A model generated the notes under the pieces. It saw nothing but the letters and a program-made list of their open reading frames with translations, did no database searches and was not told the DNA's origin. Below, piece after piece: positions 6,625-50,071 of a stretch of 64,000 nt of DNA; positions within the stretch are counted from its first letter, which is position 1; every line of letters starts with the position of its first letter. The DNA is from Bacteriovoracaceae bacterium. GTDB taxonomy: Bacteria > Bdellovibrionota > Bacteriovoracia > Bacteriovoracales > Bacteriovoracaceae. The stretch is taken from positions 18,226 through 82,225 of the forward strand of contig CANEUH010000019.1 of NCBI GenBank assembly GCA_947441615.1, in the 5' to 3' direction. The translations under genes and the position numbers were made by a program.

Positions 6625-7373
6625 GGTTTTGTAAACGGGATAAATTTCGGTACTTTTTTTGAGTATTCTTGATAATCCACTCTCTTTTGATATTTTTCTT
6701 CAAGGAGTGGCACTCCCGTGACCTTAAGGATGAAAAAATTAATTGCTAGTGGCCCTATAATCGTCCAAAAGTTTATAAATTCGAAACTTGCAAAGTAAAT
6801 CCCGTACCAAAGTAATACTTCTCCAAAATAATTAGGAAAACGGCATAATCTCCAAGGACCTGTAGTGCAAATTTTCCCTTTGTTTTCAGGTTTCGCCTTC
6901 CACCAATTAAGATAATGATCTGCACTAATTTCGAATCCAAATCCAATGACCCAAACCAGAACTCCTATCCAATTTAATAGAGAAATGTCTTTTCTCTCCT
7001 GCGCCATAGCAAAAGTTACAGGCAAGGAAACGATGAGCATTAAAAATCCCTGAAAAATAAACACTTTAAAATAGGCCTGAAGATTCGCATTCGGTTTCCA
7101 AGACTCTCTAAACTTCGTATAGCGTGGGTCTTCGCCTTTACCGCGACTTCTCATCAAAATATATGTTCCGAGCCTAAGCCCCCAAATGGTCACGATTAGC
7201 ATGAGTAAGGCATTTTTGACCGATAGAGGATGATGAAAATAGGCGACTAAACCAATGACAATAAAACCAAGTCCCCAGCCAATATCAATGACTGCGAAGT
7301 TTTTTCTAATCAACGCGACAAGGAAAAAGATGTGTACAAAGATAAGAACAGCTAAAATAAGATGAGTGAACAT
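6621..7373 (-). CDS. DUF1295 membrane protein (steroid 5-alpha-reductase-like fold)
   Basis: About 250 residues with several hydrophobic helices and the family C-terminal block FPNYFGEVLLWYGIY. I chose the ATG at 7373, eight codons inside the longest frame, because TTGGAG lies seven bases before it. The longer start would also overlap the divergent gene at 7397. DUF1295 proteins belong to the isoprenylcysteine methyltransferase/steroid 5-alpha-reductase superfamily and often accompany CFA/DUF1365 clusters. An NAD(P)H-dependent reduction or methylation of a lipid is plausible. Confidence 0.8.
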   Translation of the reverse strand: MFTHLILAVLIFVHIFFLVALIRKNFAVIDIGWGLGFIVIGLVAYFHHPLSVKNALLMLIVTIWGLRLGTYILMRSRGKGEDPRYTKFRESWKPNANLQAYFKVFIFQGFLMLIVSLPVTFAMAQERKDISLLNWIGVLVWVIGFGFEISADHYLNWWKAKPENKGKICTTGPWRLCRFPNYFGEVLLWYGIYFASFEFINFWTIIGPLAINFFILKVTGVPLLEEKYQKRVDYQEYSKKVPKFIPFTKP

Positions 7374-7396
7374 AATTTTACTCCAAGGATGCCACA

Positions 7397-7891
7397 ATGA
7401 AGATTATACTCCTGTTTCTCTTAATAATGTCATCCATGAGTTGGGGACAAACAATGAACAACATGACAAATAAAGAAAAATTCCAATACATCTTCCAAAA
7501 GCTTACTAAAGATAGTCTCTATCTTATTGATGAGTTTTATGATCCCAATATCGAATTTCATGACCCTGTAGGAATGATTAAGGGCACTAAGAAAATTAAA
7601 AGCTATTATGAAAACATGTATAAGAATGTGAAAACAATCCGCTTTGATTTTTCTCATTTTGTAGAATCCGGGGACGATGTTGTTGGTGTTTGGACGATGA
7701 CCTTGGAAACTGAAAAACTCAATGGTGGAAAGCCTATTATTGTGCCTGGAACTTCTGTCATAAAATTCTCTAATGGTAAGGCGATCTATCACAGGGATTA
7801 TTTTGATATGGGTGCTTTTGTGTATGAGAATGTGCCTGTGTTGGGTTTTTTAGTTAAAAGCATTAAGAACCGATTTAAGGTAGAGGAATGA
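7397..7891 (+). CDS. Secreted SnoaL/NTF2-like protein
   Basis: A 164-residue protein with a signal peptide (residues 1-17, ending SWG). The mature part contains LIDEFYDPNIEFHDPVG, the helix-turn typical of NTF2/SnoaL cone-shaped domains that bind small hydrophobic ligands. The same fold family appears in CFA/DUF1365 clusters, so it may bind or act on a periplasmic lipid product. It is divergent from the DUF1295 gene and overlaps the HD gene by an ATGA. Confidence 0.75.
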   Translation: MKIILLFLLIMSSMSWGQTMNNMTNKEKFQYIFQKLTKDSLYLIDEFYDPNIEFHDPVGMIKGTKKIKSYYENMYKNVKTIRFDFSHFVESGDDVVGVWTMTLETEKLNGGKPIIVPGTSVIKFSNGKAIYHRDYFDMGAFVYENVPVLGFLVKSIKNRFKVEE

Positions 7892-8517
7892 GCCGCCTTT
7901 CATTACTTATAACTCTCGCACGTCCCTTTTATCATTCAGATGATCCTGCCCATGATTGGGCGCATGTTTTACGGGTAGCTTCTAATGCTGAAGTCCTGTG
8001 TAAAAATGAGGGGATCAAATCTGAACTCGTTTTAGCTGCTGTTTATTGCCACGATCTTGTGAATCTAGCTAAAGATCATCCAGATCGCAAAAAAGCTTCT
8101 ACCCTTTCTGCAAAAGCTGCTGAGCGAATTCTCATTAAATCTGGTTACAATAACGAAGAAATTGAGATTATAAAACAAGCCATCATTGAGCATAGTTTTT
8201 CAAAAGGCGATAAGGCCAGTTGTCTAGAGGCAGCCATCGTTCAAGATTCAGATCGACTTGATGCCTTGGGATCTATCGGCATACTTCGATGTGCCGCTGT
8301 AAATGCCAAGATGAACTCAAAATTTTATGACCCTCAAGATCCCCTTGCCGAAGCTCGAGTCTTAAATGATAAGGACTTCATGCTGGACCATTATTTCGTA
8401 AAACTATTTAAGTTACCTGATCTCATGAATACGAAGGCCGCTCAAATTCTCGCAATCGATAGAGTCGAATTTATGAGGAATTTTGTAAAACAGCTTATGA
8501 TGGAAGTGAGAAAATAG
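7888..8517 (+). CDS. HD-domain phosphohydrolase
   Basis: A 209-residue HD-superfamily metal-dependent phosphohydrolase. Metal ligands are visible as H22 (AHDWAH), the central HD at 55-56 (YCHDLV) and a C-terminal aspartate in QDSDRLDA. This matches the small uncharacterised HD group around E. coli YedJ, which acts on nucleotides or phosphorylated metabolites. It starts by ATGA overlap with the SnoaL-like gene and is followed after one base by the GAF-type reductase. Confidence 0.85.
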   Translation: MSRLSLLITLARPFYHSDDPAHDWAHVLRVASNAEVLCKNEGIKSELVLAAVYCHDLVNLAKDHPDRKKASTLSAKAAERILIKSGYNNEEIEIIKQAIIEHSFSKGDKASCLEAAIVQDSDRLDALGSIGILRCAAVNAKMNSKFYDPQDPLAEARVLNDKDFMLDHYFVKLFKLPDLMNTKAAQILAIDRVEFMRNFVKQLMMEVRK

Positions 8518-29630: not shown

Positions 29631-29931
29631 ACCGAGATCAGGGGACTGTCGCCGCCGCAAGGGGGAGGAAAGTCCGGACACCATAGAGCATCGTAGCGGG
29701 TAACGCCCGTCCGCCGTGAGGCGAGGACAAGTGCAACAGAAAGGATGTATGGCCGACTTCGGTCGGTGCGTAGTGAAATCAGGTAAACTCTACGAGGTGC
29801 AAGCCCATGTAGGTGAGCGTTGAGTCTGCTCGAGGAGCTCACGGGTAGGGTGCTGGAGCTCTGGGGTAACCCAGGGCCTAGAGGAATGATGGTTTAATAC
29901 AGAATCCGGCTTATTCCTGATCTCGGTTTTT
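29631..29931 (+). ncRNA. rnpB: RNase P RNA, bacterial class A
   Basis: The hallmark GAGGAAAGTCCGGACACC is near 29666 and the universal ACAGAATCCGGCTTA near 29900, with GTGCAACAGAAAG between. The ends form a 12-bp P1 helix, ACCGAGATCAGG (29631-29642) with CCTGATCTCGGT (29916-29927), followed by a T run. It is about 300 nt, shorter than the E. coli RNA, implying loss of some peripheral helices. Confidence 0.96.
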
Positions 29932-43562: not shown

Positions 43563-43760
43563 CTAAAGACAAGACTTGACCCACCTCGTTTGAGGCCAAA
43601 CTGTAACCAAGTTCTGAAGTTGCTCCCTGAACCTCAGATAGACGTTAGTGGTCTTAATTTGCGTATGTCCCACCATTGCCATAACTCGTGCCAGTGATTC
43701 ACCACGGCCCAAGAGATTAGTTATAAAGGTAGCTATAAATATTCTTTTGATATTTCGATC
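43563..43760 (-). pseudogene. Tyrosine recombinase (integrase) C-terminal fragment
   Basis: The minus-strand frame reads FIATFITNLLGRGESLARVM then AMVGHTQIKTTNVYLRFREQ and ends at TAG (43563-43565). GHTQIKTTNVYL is the integrase box with the conserved His and catalytic Tyr. The N-terminal and Arg-containing core are missing. It is a relic of a mobile element at the edge of the IS66-rich zone. Confidence 0.7.
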
Positions 43761-44534: not shown

Positions 44535-44797
44535 AGTGCACCTTCGATAGATATTGCCCAGAAAATGGCCTACTATATAATTGATCTGAGTGGCGACATA
44601 GGGGGGCCGTAAGAATGATATGGATTGGGTGTAAATGAACTATACAGCAGTCGTTACTGGGTCTCAAAAAAGCAAGTTTAAATCTTTAATTCCTTTTTCT
44701 CTTGATACATGCGGTAAATTCAAAAAGAGGACCTATGAGAAAGCAAATTAATCTTAACCTCCATCAAGGACATAGCGGAGGAAGAATTTAGTCCCAC

Positions 44798-44824
44798 AAA
44801 AAAAGGGGAGAATTTCTTCTCCCC
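44798..44824 (-). terminator. Terminator of the 29-residue peptide gene
   Basis: On the minus strand GGGGAGAA (stem, 44824-44817), loop GAAA and TTCTCCCC (44812-44805) are followed by seven T residues. It starts 8 bp after the peptide stop, making that gene a complete short transcription unit. Confidence 0.88.
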
Positions 44825-44831
44825 CCAAATT

Positions 44832-44921
44832 TTAGAACCAACCCATTAACAATCTTAAAATTGTTGTTAGCAATTTAAAAATCTGGATTATAAGCTCTAG
44901 AATTTTCAACGCTTTGAGCAT
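44832..44921 (-). CDS. 29-residue amphipathic membrane peptide, type I toxin-like
   Basis: ATG at 44921 lies 5 bases after a perfect AGGAGG. The peptide, MLKALKILELIIQIF then KLLTTILRLLMGWF, is almost entirely Leu/Ile/Phe on one helical face with Lys3, Lys6, Lys16 and Arg23 on the other. Length and composition recall TisB-class inner-membrane toxins of E. coli, though I see no residue-by-residue homology. The leader can fold to hide the Shine-Dalgarno, and a divergent RNA carries a 16-nt complement to codons 3-8. Toxicity is inferred. Confidence 0.75.
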   Translation of the reverse strand: MLKALKILELIIQIFKLLTTILRLLMGWF

Positions 44922-44926
44922 CCTTG

Positions 44927-44958
44927 CCTCCTAAGATAGCCTTCATTGGCCACAGGAG
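44927..44958 (-). promoter_or_regulatory. Shine-Dalgarno-sequestering leader hairpin
   Basis: In the peptide mRNA, CTCCT (44958-44954) can pair with AGGAG (44932-44928) of the Shine-Dalgarno. Nested inside, TGGCC pairs with GGCTA around loop AATGAA. The two stems together would close the ribosome site, as in the translationally inert leaders of TisB-type toxins. Confidence 0.6.
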
Positions 44959-44967
44959 CTCTCCGCT

Positions 44968-44995
44968 TTGATCATTTTTATAAATGTGCTAGAAT
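44968..44995 (+). promoter_or_regulatory. Promoter of the divergent antisense-type RNA
   Basis: TTGATC (44968-44973) and TAGAAT (44990-44995), spaced by 16 bases, predict a start near 45002. A TATAAA on the opposite strand (44982-44977) is a candidate -10 for the peptide gene, so the two divergent promoters overlap. Confidence 0.55.
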
Positions 44996-45001
44996 AAATT
45001 A

Positions 45002-45077
45002 CCCCCAAATTCGGGTTTGTTAGACCTCTTGGGAATTTTCAACGCTTTAAAACCCCTCTTATCATGAGGGGTTTTTT
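45002..45077 (+). ncRNA. Putative antitoxin small RNA, about 76 nt
   Basis: It has a promoter upstream, no ORF, and a strong terminator AACCCCTC/GAGGGGTT plus T6 at 45051-45077. A 5' hairpin CCCAA/TTGGG (45004-45033) can form. Between hairpin and terminator lies the single-stranded stretch GAATTTTCAACGCTTT (45033-45048). The same bases occur on this strand at 44900-44915, inside the oppositely transcribed peptide gene. The RNA is therefore perfectly complementary to the peptide mRNA over 16 nt just after its start codon. Confidence 0.65.
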
Positions 45078-45235
45078 ATTTGGAAGTACCAATGAATTTT
45101 CGAGACGATAGTTTCCAAATTTGAAACTTCATCAAAATCACTAGAAAACGATTCGCTTTCTGAAAACTTATACGACCCTTCGGATGCTTGCCTGATGGCT
45201 GCTAAACGCACTTCTCCTGCCCAAAGGAGCTCTCA

Positions 45236-46034: not shown

Positions 46035-47405
46035 GACGAAGTCCTAATCAAAAGTAAAATTTTTGGAAGGAGCTCGAAGAAGATCTCTACGAATAAGCCG
46101 TCTGCAAGGGCAAAAACTAAAGATAAAAAGAAACGCGAAAACTTTTCTAAGGATCTGGCGGATCGTTACCCGAACGTGGATATCAAGGAAGAAGAAATCT
46201 TGCTTGAGACCCCTCCAAGTTGCACTTGTTGCCAGTCTCAAATGGAAGACTCTGGACTTACTGAGGATAGTGAGTATCAAACAGTGATTCCTAAGAAGTT
46301 TTTAATAGTGAGGCAAAAAAGCCATAAATACCGCTGCGGGAGCTGTCATGGAGATATCCAGACGGCCCCGGGGCATCCTCGTCTTGCGCCGGGATCATCT
46401 TATGGTGACGAAGTCATAGTGGACGTAGCACTTTCAAAATATTGCGATCTAATTCCCGTTGAAAGATATCCAATGATAGCCGCACGTCAGGGTTTGAAGG
46501 GTCTGCCGTCGAATAGCTTAATTAACGTGACCCATTTTTTGGCGGATTTCATAAATCCAGCGTATCAGAAGTTACTTTTAGAAATCAGATTTTCGGAAGT
46601 AATTCAAGCTGACGAGACCCCACACCGGATCCTTGAGGGAGACGAGAAAAGTAACTGGTACTTGTGGGGATTCCCGACTGTAAAGGCGTGTTACTTTGAG
46701 TTTCATGACACGAGATCAGGTGACGTCGCTATTGATTTTTTGAAGGACTCAAGCTGTATCTATCTCTTAAGCGATGTTTATTCTGGTTATTCGAAAGCAG
46801 TGTCGGAGACGAACAAAATGAGAGCGAAAGAGAATAAACAACCTATATCCAGTGCGTACTGCAACGCTCATGCGAGAAGAAAGTTTGACGAGGCTAAGCA
46901 TCCATTTGTGAATGAGACACAGTTTTGTCTGGATAAGTTTGAAGAGATTTATAAATTAAATTCGGAATCGAAAGATAAAAGTCCTGACGATGTTCTAAGA
47001 ATAAGATCCCGGATGATAAAATACTTCGATGAGATGAAAAAGCAGTCAGAGAAAGATCTTCGTGGAGTCTCAAATAAGAGTTAACTGGCAAGAGCGATAA
47101 ATTACTTTTTAAATAACTTTGAGGGACTCACATTTTTTATAAAAGAGGCTTCGATTCCGATAGACAACAACTCACAAGAAAGACTTCTTAGGAATCCGGT
47201 AATTGGTAGAAAAACTTGGTATGGAACCCACTCAGTAAAGGGTACGAAGACAGCGGCTGCGATATTTTCGTTAGTCGAGAGCTGCAAGTTAAACAAAGTG
47301 AATCCGAGAGATTATTTTAAAGAATTAGTAAGTCAGATACACCAAAAGTCAGACCCACTTACCCCGTGGAAATTTCTTCAAAAGAAAAAGTCCGCAGAAA
47401 AGTAA
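46035..47405 (+). pseudogene. IS66 transposase tnpC, 5'-truncated with one nonsense codon
   Basis: A single frame runs from 46035 to TAA at 47403 and is broken only by TAA at 47082-47084. It contains the zinc-finger segment PPSCTCCQSQM...YRCGSCHGDI, the DDE-core pieces IQADETPHRIL and YLLSDVYSGY, and the C-terminal IPIDNNSQERLLRNPVIGRK. The start is missing: MIALNRRTKS overlapping the accessory gene stop leads into a stop. A one-base change (GAA to TAA) would explain 47082. Confidence 0.85.
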
Positions 47406-49335: not shown

Positions 49336-49656
49336 TTGTCTTCGGTCGTGGACTTCAGAAAATCAATCAACGGGCTCGGAGCTATTGTTCAGGAGGAGAT
49401 GAATCTCAATCTCTTTGACTCCGCACTCTTCATCTTCTGCTGTCTGAGAAGAAAAAGAATCAAAATCTTGTATTGGGATCAGACAGGATTCGCCCTCTGG
49501 TATAAGAAACTTGAGGAAGATCTCTTCCCTTGGCCCAAGAAGTTCGAGGATAAGACTGTTGAACTTACGACTAAAGAGCTTCAGTGGATTCTGGATGGAA
49601 TCGATATCTGGAAAATAAAACCCTTCGAAGAAAAAAATTATCAAAAAATGTGCTGA
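49336..49656 (+). CDS. IS66 Orf2/TnpB, nearly complete
   Basis: A 106-residue frame: VDFRKSINGLGAIVQEEMNL, FIFCCLRRKRIKILYWDQTG, then LYKK-like and KELQWILDGIDIWK. This is the IS66 TnpB family. The first residues before VDFRKS are missing, so the TTG start at 49336 is artificial and the gene is truncated at its 5' end. Confidence 0.8.
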   Translation: MSSVVDFRKSINGLGAIVQEEMNLNLFDSALFIFCCLRRKRIKILYWDQTGFALWYKKLEEDLFPWPKKFEDKTVELTTKELQWILDGIDIWKIKPFEEKNYQKMC

Positions 49657-49705: not shown

Positions 49706-50071
49706 ATGCTTTCGTATGAAGAACTTCTTCAAGAAAATGAACGCCTTAAGAATGAGAATCAAGGTCTCCAAGACCTTGTGGCACAACTTCGTCGCAAGCA
49801 ATACGGAAAAAGTTCTGAAAAAGTTCCCGCTGAGCAGTTGGGGATGTTTGACGAGGTTGAAACTGAGGCCCTAAATTGGAAGAAAAAATTGGATGTTCTC
49901 AGTAAAACCAGAGGGAGCAGTGGCCAGTGCAAATCTCTACAGTCTTGTAGAAACGGCGAAGGCCAATGGACTTGATCCATTTGATTATCTGAATCTGGTC
50001 TTTAAGAAACTACCGAAAGCTGAAACCGAGAAAGATTTTTTAGAGCTTCTTCCTGTCAAGATAGAGAGTTA
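49706..50071 (+). pseudogene. IS66 tnpC with large internal deletion
   Basis: The N-terminus MLSYEELLQENERLKNENQG, LQDLVAQLRRKQYGKSSEKV, as far as LDVLS, is intact. A frame change near 49900 then leads into the C-terminus ASANLYSLVETAKANGLDPF, ending LLPVKIES. The zinc finger and DDE core are missing, so roughly the middle three quarters are gone. Confidence 0.85.

Follow-up and report, generated by a model that had tools for sequence, protein, structure and literature searches.

A small locus at positions 44798-45077 of the 64,000-nucleotide stretch of DNA analysed here (the window) has the organisation of a type I toxin-antitoxin pair, and we put the probability that it is one at about 0.84; in it, translation of a peptide mRNA would be blocked by a divergently encoded small RNA annealing near the beginning of that mRNA. 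The related loci are best read as a new family of toxin-antitoxin cassettes of type I-like character, which have multiplied to form arrays whose pairs are partly orthogonal to one another. The initial annotation of the window had already proposed a toxin-antitoxin-like locus here; as far as sequence goes that proposal is supported, and it is the function that we infer.

Locus architecture and genomic setting

The window comes from a 3.26-Mb draft genome of Bacteriovoracaceae type, in the phylum Bdellovibrionota; the family Bacteriovoracaceae includes predators. Exact matches to the pattern of the small RNA occur in 14 GTDB-species contig stretches, the named records all being metagenome assemblies labelled Bacteriovoracaceae or Bacteriovorax, and there is no match to it in viral contigs. 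An Rfam scan at gathering thresholds gave no match at the peptide/small-RNA locus; the window does contain a Class A bacterial RNase P RNA at 29633-29929.

The minus strand carries the peptide gene, whose ORF of 29 codons (44832-44921; MLKALKILELIIQIFKLLTTILRLLMGWF) encodes a predicted membrane-active toxin with homologues in related genomes. It has an AGGAGG Shine-Dalgarno sequence 5 nt before the ATG (44927-44932) and its own intrinsic terminator (44803-44826), all just as the initial annotation had placed them. GGAG is found at the aligned position in 20 of 21 leaders, being shifted in the remaining one (G061.11). By eye, no promoter is recognisable for the peptide gene, where a TATAAA-like stretch upstream is accompanied by no -35 element, and none of four LexA-type palindrome patterns, taken in their generally known forms, is matched within window 44701-45200, though the genus's own LexA motif may differ.

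On the plus strand, a predicted promoter, TTGATC-16-TAGAAT with an extended -10 (TGC), lies at 44968-44995 and precedes a predicted small RNA of about 77 nt, the putative antitoxin (45001-45077, its 5' end being placed from the -10). Its parts are a 5' hairpin in the predicted fold (45004-45033), the antisense linker GAATTTTCAACGCTTT (45033-45048) and an intrinsic terminator (about 45049-45077); the promoter and terminator signals that had been proposed for this unit are confirmed in the sequence, the latter at 45049-45075. The earlier statement that the unit holds no ORF stands at a 25-aa threshold but has to be qualified for a 25-aa frame with a TTG start, at 44946-45023, which ends inside the unit.

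The link between the two units is the linker sequence itself. GAATTTTCAACGCTTT occurs in the 64-kb window only at 44900-44915 and 45033-45048, while 100 shuffles gave no match at all; no other exact direct repeat in 44798-45077 is as long, and the longest seen in 5,000 dinucleotide-preserving shuffles was 14. Its complement is ORF nt 7-22, within codons 3-8, so that the antisense relation originally noted is confirmed by the sequence. In the relatives the target extends over codons 2-8 (ORF nt 5-22, here 44900-44917 on the minus strand), of which 44900-44915 are the perfect 16 nt.

A fragment at window 43566-43760 is like the C-terminal end of a tyrosine integrase and similar to L007 2952-3263, which matches Phage_integrase, the window fragment itself having no Pfam match. 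Remnants of IS66-family transposases adjoin the cassette (46176-47084 and 49706-49975), and 49336-49656 is, by eye, probably another.

The peptide

Peptides of the family are 27-29 residues long and hydrophobic, with spaced charges; that of the window has a net charge of +3. The amphipathic helix claimed for it is fair, with a hydrophobic moment of 0.38 that 1.75% of shuffles reach, but not extreme, and in only 6 of 21 peptides tested was the moment beaten by fewer than 5% of shuffles. Judged by its codons the peptide is under purifying selection: among 21 genes pN/pS is 0.36 over codons 2-27, and pN is below pS in 207 of 210 comparisons, which answers the question of codon-level conservation raised with the first description of the ORF. 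In the target codons pS is 0.64 and pN 0.16; silent sites are thus free to vary just where the RNA would pair, and yet they do so in step with the linker.

Comparison with known toxins leads towards TisB. The Pfam model TisB_toxin matches 12 of 23 family peptides at E<=10, all below threshold (best E 0.0033), with a top printed score of 17.9 bits against a curated cut-off of 25; the window peptide itself is without a TisB_toxin match. NCBIfam TIGR04459 matches 9 of the 23 (best E 0.012), and none of 69 shuffled peptides matched TisB_toxin. For other type I toxin families of Pfam (Ldr, Ibs, Hok and Fst), none of the 23 peptides gave a match in Pfam or NCBIfam at E<=10, in a search whose HMMER filters discard most weak hits. 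Two of the family's peptides, compared with E. coli TisB by BLASTP, are 39% identical to it over 23 residues and 42% over 19, with E of 1e-4 and 0.003, these being single-comparison values. In the BLASTP register E9, K16 and position 23, which is R in one peptide and N in the second, fall on D5, K12 and Q19 of TisB, and K16 is present in 22 of the 23 peptides; K12 and Q19 are reported as essential in TisB (PMC11449926). A profile comparison by hhalign aligns 18 columns at 46% probability in a register different from that of BLASTP, and the residue match is for that reason tentative. We read the resemblance as a likeness in the working part, kinship not being proven.

The predicted small RNA and its potential pairing with the peptide mRNA

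The predicted fold of the small RNA, a 5' hairpin, an open linker and a terminator hairpin, has a z-score of -3.24, and the 16-mer minus its first base (45034-45048 unpaired) is the open linker. Over 21 loci the mean unpaired probability is 0.79 in the linker core and 0.46 for the whole RNAs. Both signals of the unit that had been pointed out in the window are conserved in relatives: the extended -10 is present in 21 of 21 promoters and TTGA at a spacing of 16-17 in 20 of 21, where mononucleotide shuffles lead one to expect about 0.04 of 21, and the terminator stem is conserved likewise, as is the sequence of the RNA across 25 complete pairs. No Hfq was found in the 26 genomes of the window's genus, several of which are incomplete; the same search was positive in 5 of 14 control genomes, E. 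coli included. The window's genome does have an RNase III gene.

The conservation of the 16-mer pair in relatives was proposed at the outset as a test, and in 25 complete loci the paired segments are both kept and co-varying. An ungapped comparison of target and linker across ORF nt 5-22 shows each of the 25 linkers matching the peptide gene of its own locus, with 14-18 of 18 positions identical. The 450 cells comprise 397 identities, 20 transitions compatible with G-U pairing, 11 pair-breaking transitions and 22 transversions, most of the pair-breaking changes being at one end or the other. The 300 cells of the core (nt 8-19) hold 288 identities, nine G-U-compatible transitions, some of them shared by descent (G067 and G061.6), three transversions and no pair-breaking transition.

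Identity between target and linker is 0.882 within a locus. Across loci the figure is 0.641 among targets and 0.645 among linkers, so target and linker of a locus have changed jointly; in this first comparison, though, the linker stretch was chosen for its best fit to the target of the same locus, a bias towards own pairs. The verdict is the same when the offset is left free in all combinations: own partners agree at 15.88 of 18 positions and permuted ones at 11.72, and pairable positions number 16.68 for own partners and 13.97 for permuted ones, in neither case reached by any of 100,000 permutations, which, like the other partner permutations, treat the loci as independent of shared descent. 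Duplex energies for the first 21 pairs are -27.0 kcal/mol for own and -18.4 for permuted partners (0 of 100,000), and in the one genome with 8 pairs only 2 of 40,320 arrangements, the own one included, are as good. On this comparative evidence the pairing of target and linker is under selection.

The specificity has limits. Scored by Watson-Crick plus G-U pairs, no linker surpasses the own one for 15 of 25 targets, and for 9 of these the own one stands alone at the top; for the remaining 10 another locus's linker scores higher. By identity alone the corresponding figures are 17 and 12. Close paralogues should, from these scores, cross-talk, and clean orthogonality is not seen.

The mRNA leader

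Upstream of the Shine-Dalgarno sequence the peptide mRNA has a predicted hairpin with a co-varying stem (GGCC-AAUGAA-GGCU, 44938-44951) and, beyond it, a segment (44955-44973, both on the minus strand) that is predicted to pair with the start codon and codons 1-6. RNAalifold on 21 leaders pairs GAGCUCC of this segment with GGAUGCUC at 44916-44923, which covers the start codon, and adds the AAUGAA-loop hairpin; two outer short helices are predicted besides. In the hairpin stem 98.8% of cells are paired, with changes on both sides in 13 of 21 rows at the outer pair. For the structure including the two outer helices 93.1% of cells are paired, against 25-43% in slid controls, and two-sided changes number 27 against at most 11, a control that flatters the structure, which was partly drawn from the same sequences.

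The leader helix claims ORF nucleotides from about -2 to 16 and the small RNA those from 5 to 22, so that the two overlap. A leader helix acting together with the small RNA would fit the two-layer control known in other type I mRNAs (PMC11228461). When the mRNAs are folded without the leader (partition function), the target opens in 18 of 21 loci and the AUG in only 9 of 21; a simple step in which cutting off the leader starts translation is therefore unsupported. The idea that the leader holds a conserved upstream ORF was rejected, since some loci lack an AUG in the AAUGAA loop and its frame varies in length.

Distribution, copies and decay

A DNA search of 58 genomes gave five more loci of the same genus, in which most of the cassette is 73-92% identical, and a sixth with a part of it. 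With peptide profiles run over 129 genomes of the family the gene turned up in a second genus (g32) also, often as clustered copies, and a covariance model of the small RNA added two more complete pairs and several orphan RNAs. In all, 25 complete pairs are present in 13 of the 129 genomes: 6 in 6 of 26 genomes of genus g1 and 19 in 7 of 14 of g32, where G068 has 8, G061 3, G060, G063 and G067 2 each, and G064 and G070 1 each. Most of the genomes being draft assemblies, these counts are lower bounds. A twenty-sixth pair, in G063, is split by an element of about 1.3 kb that looks by eye like an insertion sequence (L056, about 7150-8440); it parts leader from Shine-Dalgarno site, cutting the peptide gene off from its leader and leaving the small RNA intact.

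Throughout the phylum the peptide search gave matches at E<=0.01 in 18 of 368 genomes, with nothing convincing among these 368 outside the family Bacteriovoracaceae; matches in G082 and G217 (outside genera g1, g32 and g33), L098 and G068:C353 look like chance, and those with E of 0.05-0.5 in one search, or up to 10 in the other, were taken as noise and most were left out. Among the matches to the small-RNA model, G000:C14, G063:C6 255252, G062:C86, G058 and G093 have little in common with the family but a terminator and were rejected; G022, G118 and G126 were left out of the pairs.

The cassette is accessory: homology among loci of the same genus stops at or near the two terminators, and in G015 the cassette lies inside a variable stretch whose flanks on either side are kept in relatives. 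Neighbours common to many loci were not found, only a few pairs of loci sharing flanking proteins (the Pfam scan of the flanks covered 9 flanking proteins).

Decay is asymmetric. Among peptide matches with E up to 0.05 within the family, no peptide gene with leader, Shine-Dalgarno sequence and ORF intact lacks an adjacent small RNA. Two loci (G063d and G068:C181) keep the ORF but have lost the leader beside it; peptide remnants lacking start and leader are seen in L061, L086, L087 and parts of L126 and L132, and that in L093 keeps the ATG, with an early stop and no leader. Conversely, six copies like the small RNA (G010:C48, G061:C13, G066:C3 and three in G073) have no peptide gene in the 260 nt upstream or in the aligned locus; a promoter-like stretch is kept, by eye, in only two of the six, so most look like decay rather than working orphan antitoxins. 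This asymmetry is what a toxin would leave, and decay alone could also give it.

Scars resembling those of deletions across the cassette's short direct repeats, with loss of the start and leader or of the whole peptide gene, are seen at L123 2545-2628 (G073) and L061 2084-2163 (G064). By eye, L061 has the target fused to the small-RNA terminator and L123 the peptide-side terminator fused to the 5' end of the small RNA.

A different small-peptide gene (MIRVLALIILWLQLMVAVLELIR in G003) is found at L090 1501-1580 (G003) and L088 1501-1566 (G074). In the predicted fold of its leader UCUUCC pairs with GGAAGA near the start, with the same AAUGAA-loop hairpin, and the 1 kb searched holds no antisense repeat of 11 nt or more. 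This may be a related toxin mRNA that closes itself and has its antitoxin at a distance; with such a closed leader and no antisense repeat nearby, the rule that a small RNA lies adjacent may not reach beyond the family.

Proposed mechanism and alternatives

In the mechanism that we favour both RNAs would be transcribed, and the leader would keep new peptide transcripts closed. The small RNA, working without Hfq, would cover codons 2-8 within the initiation footprint of the ribosome, and the duplex with the mRNA would perhaps be exposed to RNase III. If the small RNA were lost, or the mRNA made in a burst, the peptide, which would insert in the inner membrane and depolarise it as TisB does, could stop growth. 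A fuller version, in which an Hfq-free family of cassettes has toxin start, small-RNA linker and cis leader co-evolving, and in which duplication has produced at least 25 pairs now drifting to separate specificities, is tentative, its chances in our estimate falling a little short of even.

All the evidence for pairing would suit any dedicated antisense pair, and with the TisB match lying under its cut-off one may ask whether the peptide is instead a harmless or regulatory small membrane protein tuned by its own antisense RNA, not part of a toxin-antitoxin system. We hold this to be unlikely in view of the TisB-like arrangement, with K16 falling on the essential K12 of TisB in the BLASTP alignment (hhalign gives another register), and of a patchy, multi-copy, accessory presence that is usual for toxin-antitoxin cassettes and unlike that of housekeeping peptides. 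The charge (+3) and amphipathic character of the peptide, in a family that includes predators, also bring to mind a leaderless antimicrobial or prey-directed product, released onto other cells and with its dose set by the antisense RNA; but the library entry closest to it is a toxin that acts on its own cell, and no neighbour shared by many loci was found beyond the few pairs with flanking proteins alike, so that this reading seems to us very improbable.

The likeness of the two 16-mer copies could in principle be due to recombination or gene conversion between direct repeats, with no RNA pairing at all, and losses that look linked to repeats do occur (the fusions in L061 and L123, judged by eye). 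Conversion would, however, give pair-keeping and pair-breaking transitions alike, and the nine to none in the core, even with some of the nine shared by descent, speaks against it; so does the predicted place of the linker in an open loop, flanked by hairpins that are conserved, as is the promoter of the unit. We give this explanation hardly any credence. With 25 natural pairs, eight of them in a single genome, the splitting of pairing specificity after duplication is open to direct test, and so is a possible competition of the cis leader with the trans RNA for the start codon; if the fuller version given above is true, this library of pairs shows how new antisense pairs turn orthogonal.

Comparison with known type I systems

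The initial annotation likened the locus to TisB/IstR-1, DinQ/AgrB and ZorO/OrzO; the divergent layout and the short complementarity bear this out, whereas the target is here the start of the coding region and not the 5' UTR. With TisB/IstR-1 of E. coli (PF13939, TIGR04459) it shares a 29-aa amphipathic peptide, a divergent small RNA and short complementarity, but IstR-1 is described as binding a standby site in the 5' UTR (PMC4147584) and the target predicted here is codons 2-8; with the score below cut-off and the pairing site in the coding region, the locus does not belong to the TisB/IstR family by the tests made. ZorO/OrzO, ShoB/OhsC and DinQ/AgrB, also of E. coli, are similar in divergent layout and limited complementarity. 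For OrzO, 18 nt of complementarity are reported, 15 nt in a row being enough, and a portion of the pairing segment is said to tell the two duplicated zor-orz loci apart (PMC3919570). According to PMC4147584, antitoxins of the divergent E. coli systems bind the long 5' UTR and overlap neither the initiation site nor the coding sequence, unlike the coding-region site proposed here. TimP/TimR of Salmonella resembles it in having a divergent small RNA, a small toxic membrane protein and an mRNA structure that hides the ribosome binding site (PMC11228461, PMC7667032), and differs in that the TimR site is given as more than 60 nt upstream of the ribosome binding site (PMC7667032). Complementarity within the toxin coding region, for which the present locus has the pairing potential, is reported for RalR/RalA of the E. 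coli rac prophage, though RalR is a DNase and RalA Hfq-dependent (PMC4147584), as against a 29-aa peptide and Hfq in 0 of 26 genomes here. Coding-region pairing in divergent type I loci may have a precedent, and no priority is claimed for it.

Type I systems are reported from few phyla, namely Proteobacteria, Firmicutes, Tenericutes and lately Cyanobacteria (PMC12390103), partly because such peptides and RNAs escape annotation. Among the openly available papers found by searching for type I systems or antitoxins in Bdellovibrio, Bacteriovorax or predatory bacteria, PMC3818213 included, none reports one. MsoT1/MsoA1 of Microcystis is likewise described as a type I-like system outside the classical phyla (PMC12390103), in a different phylum from the present locus. 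If our reading is true, a family of the Bdellovibrionota with a divergent layout, an antisense site in the coding region and no Hfq detected widens the kind of system that the type I class comprises.
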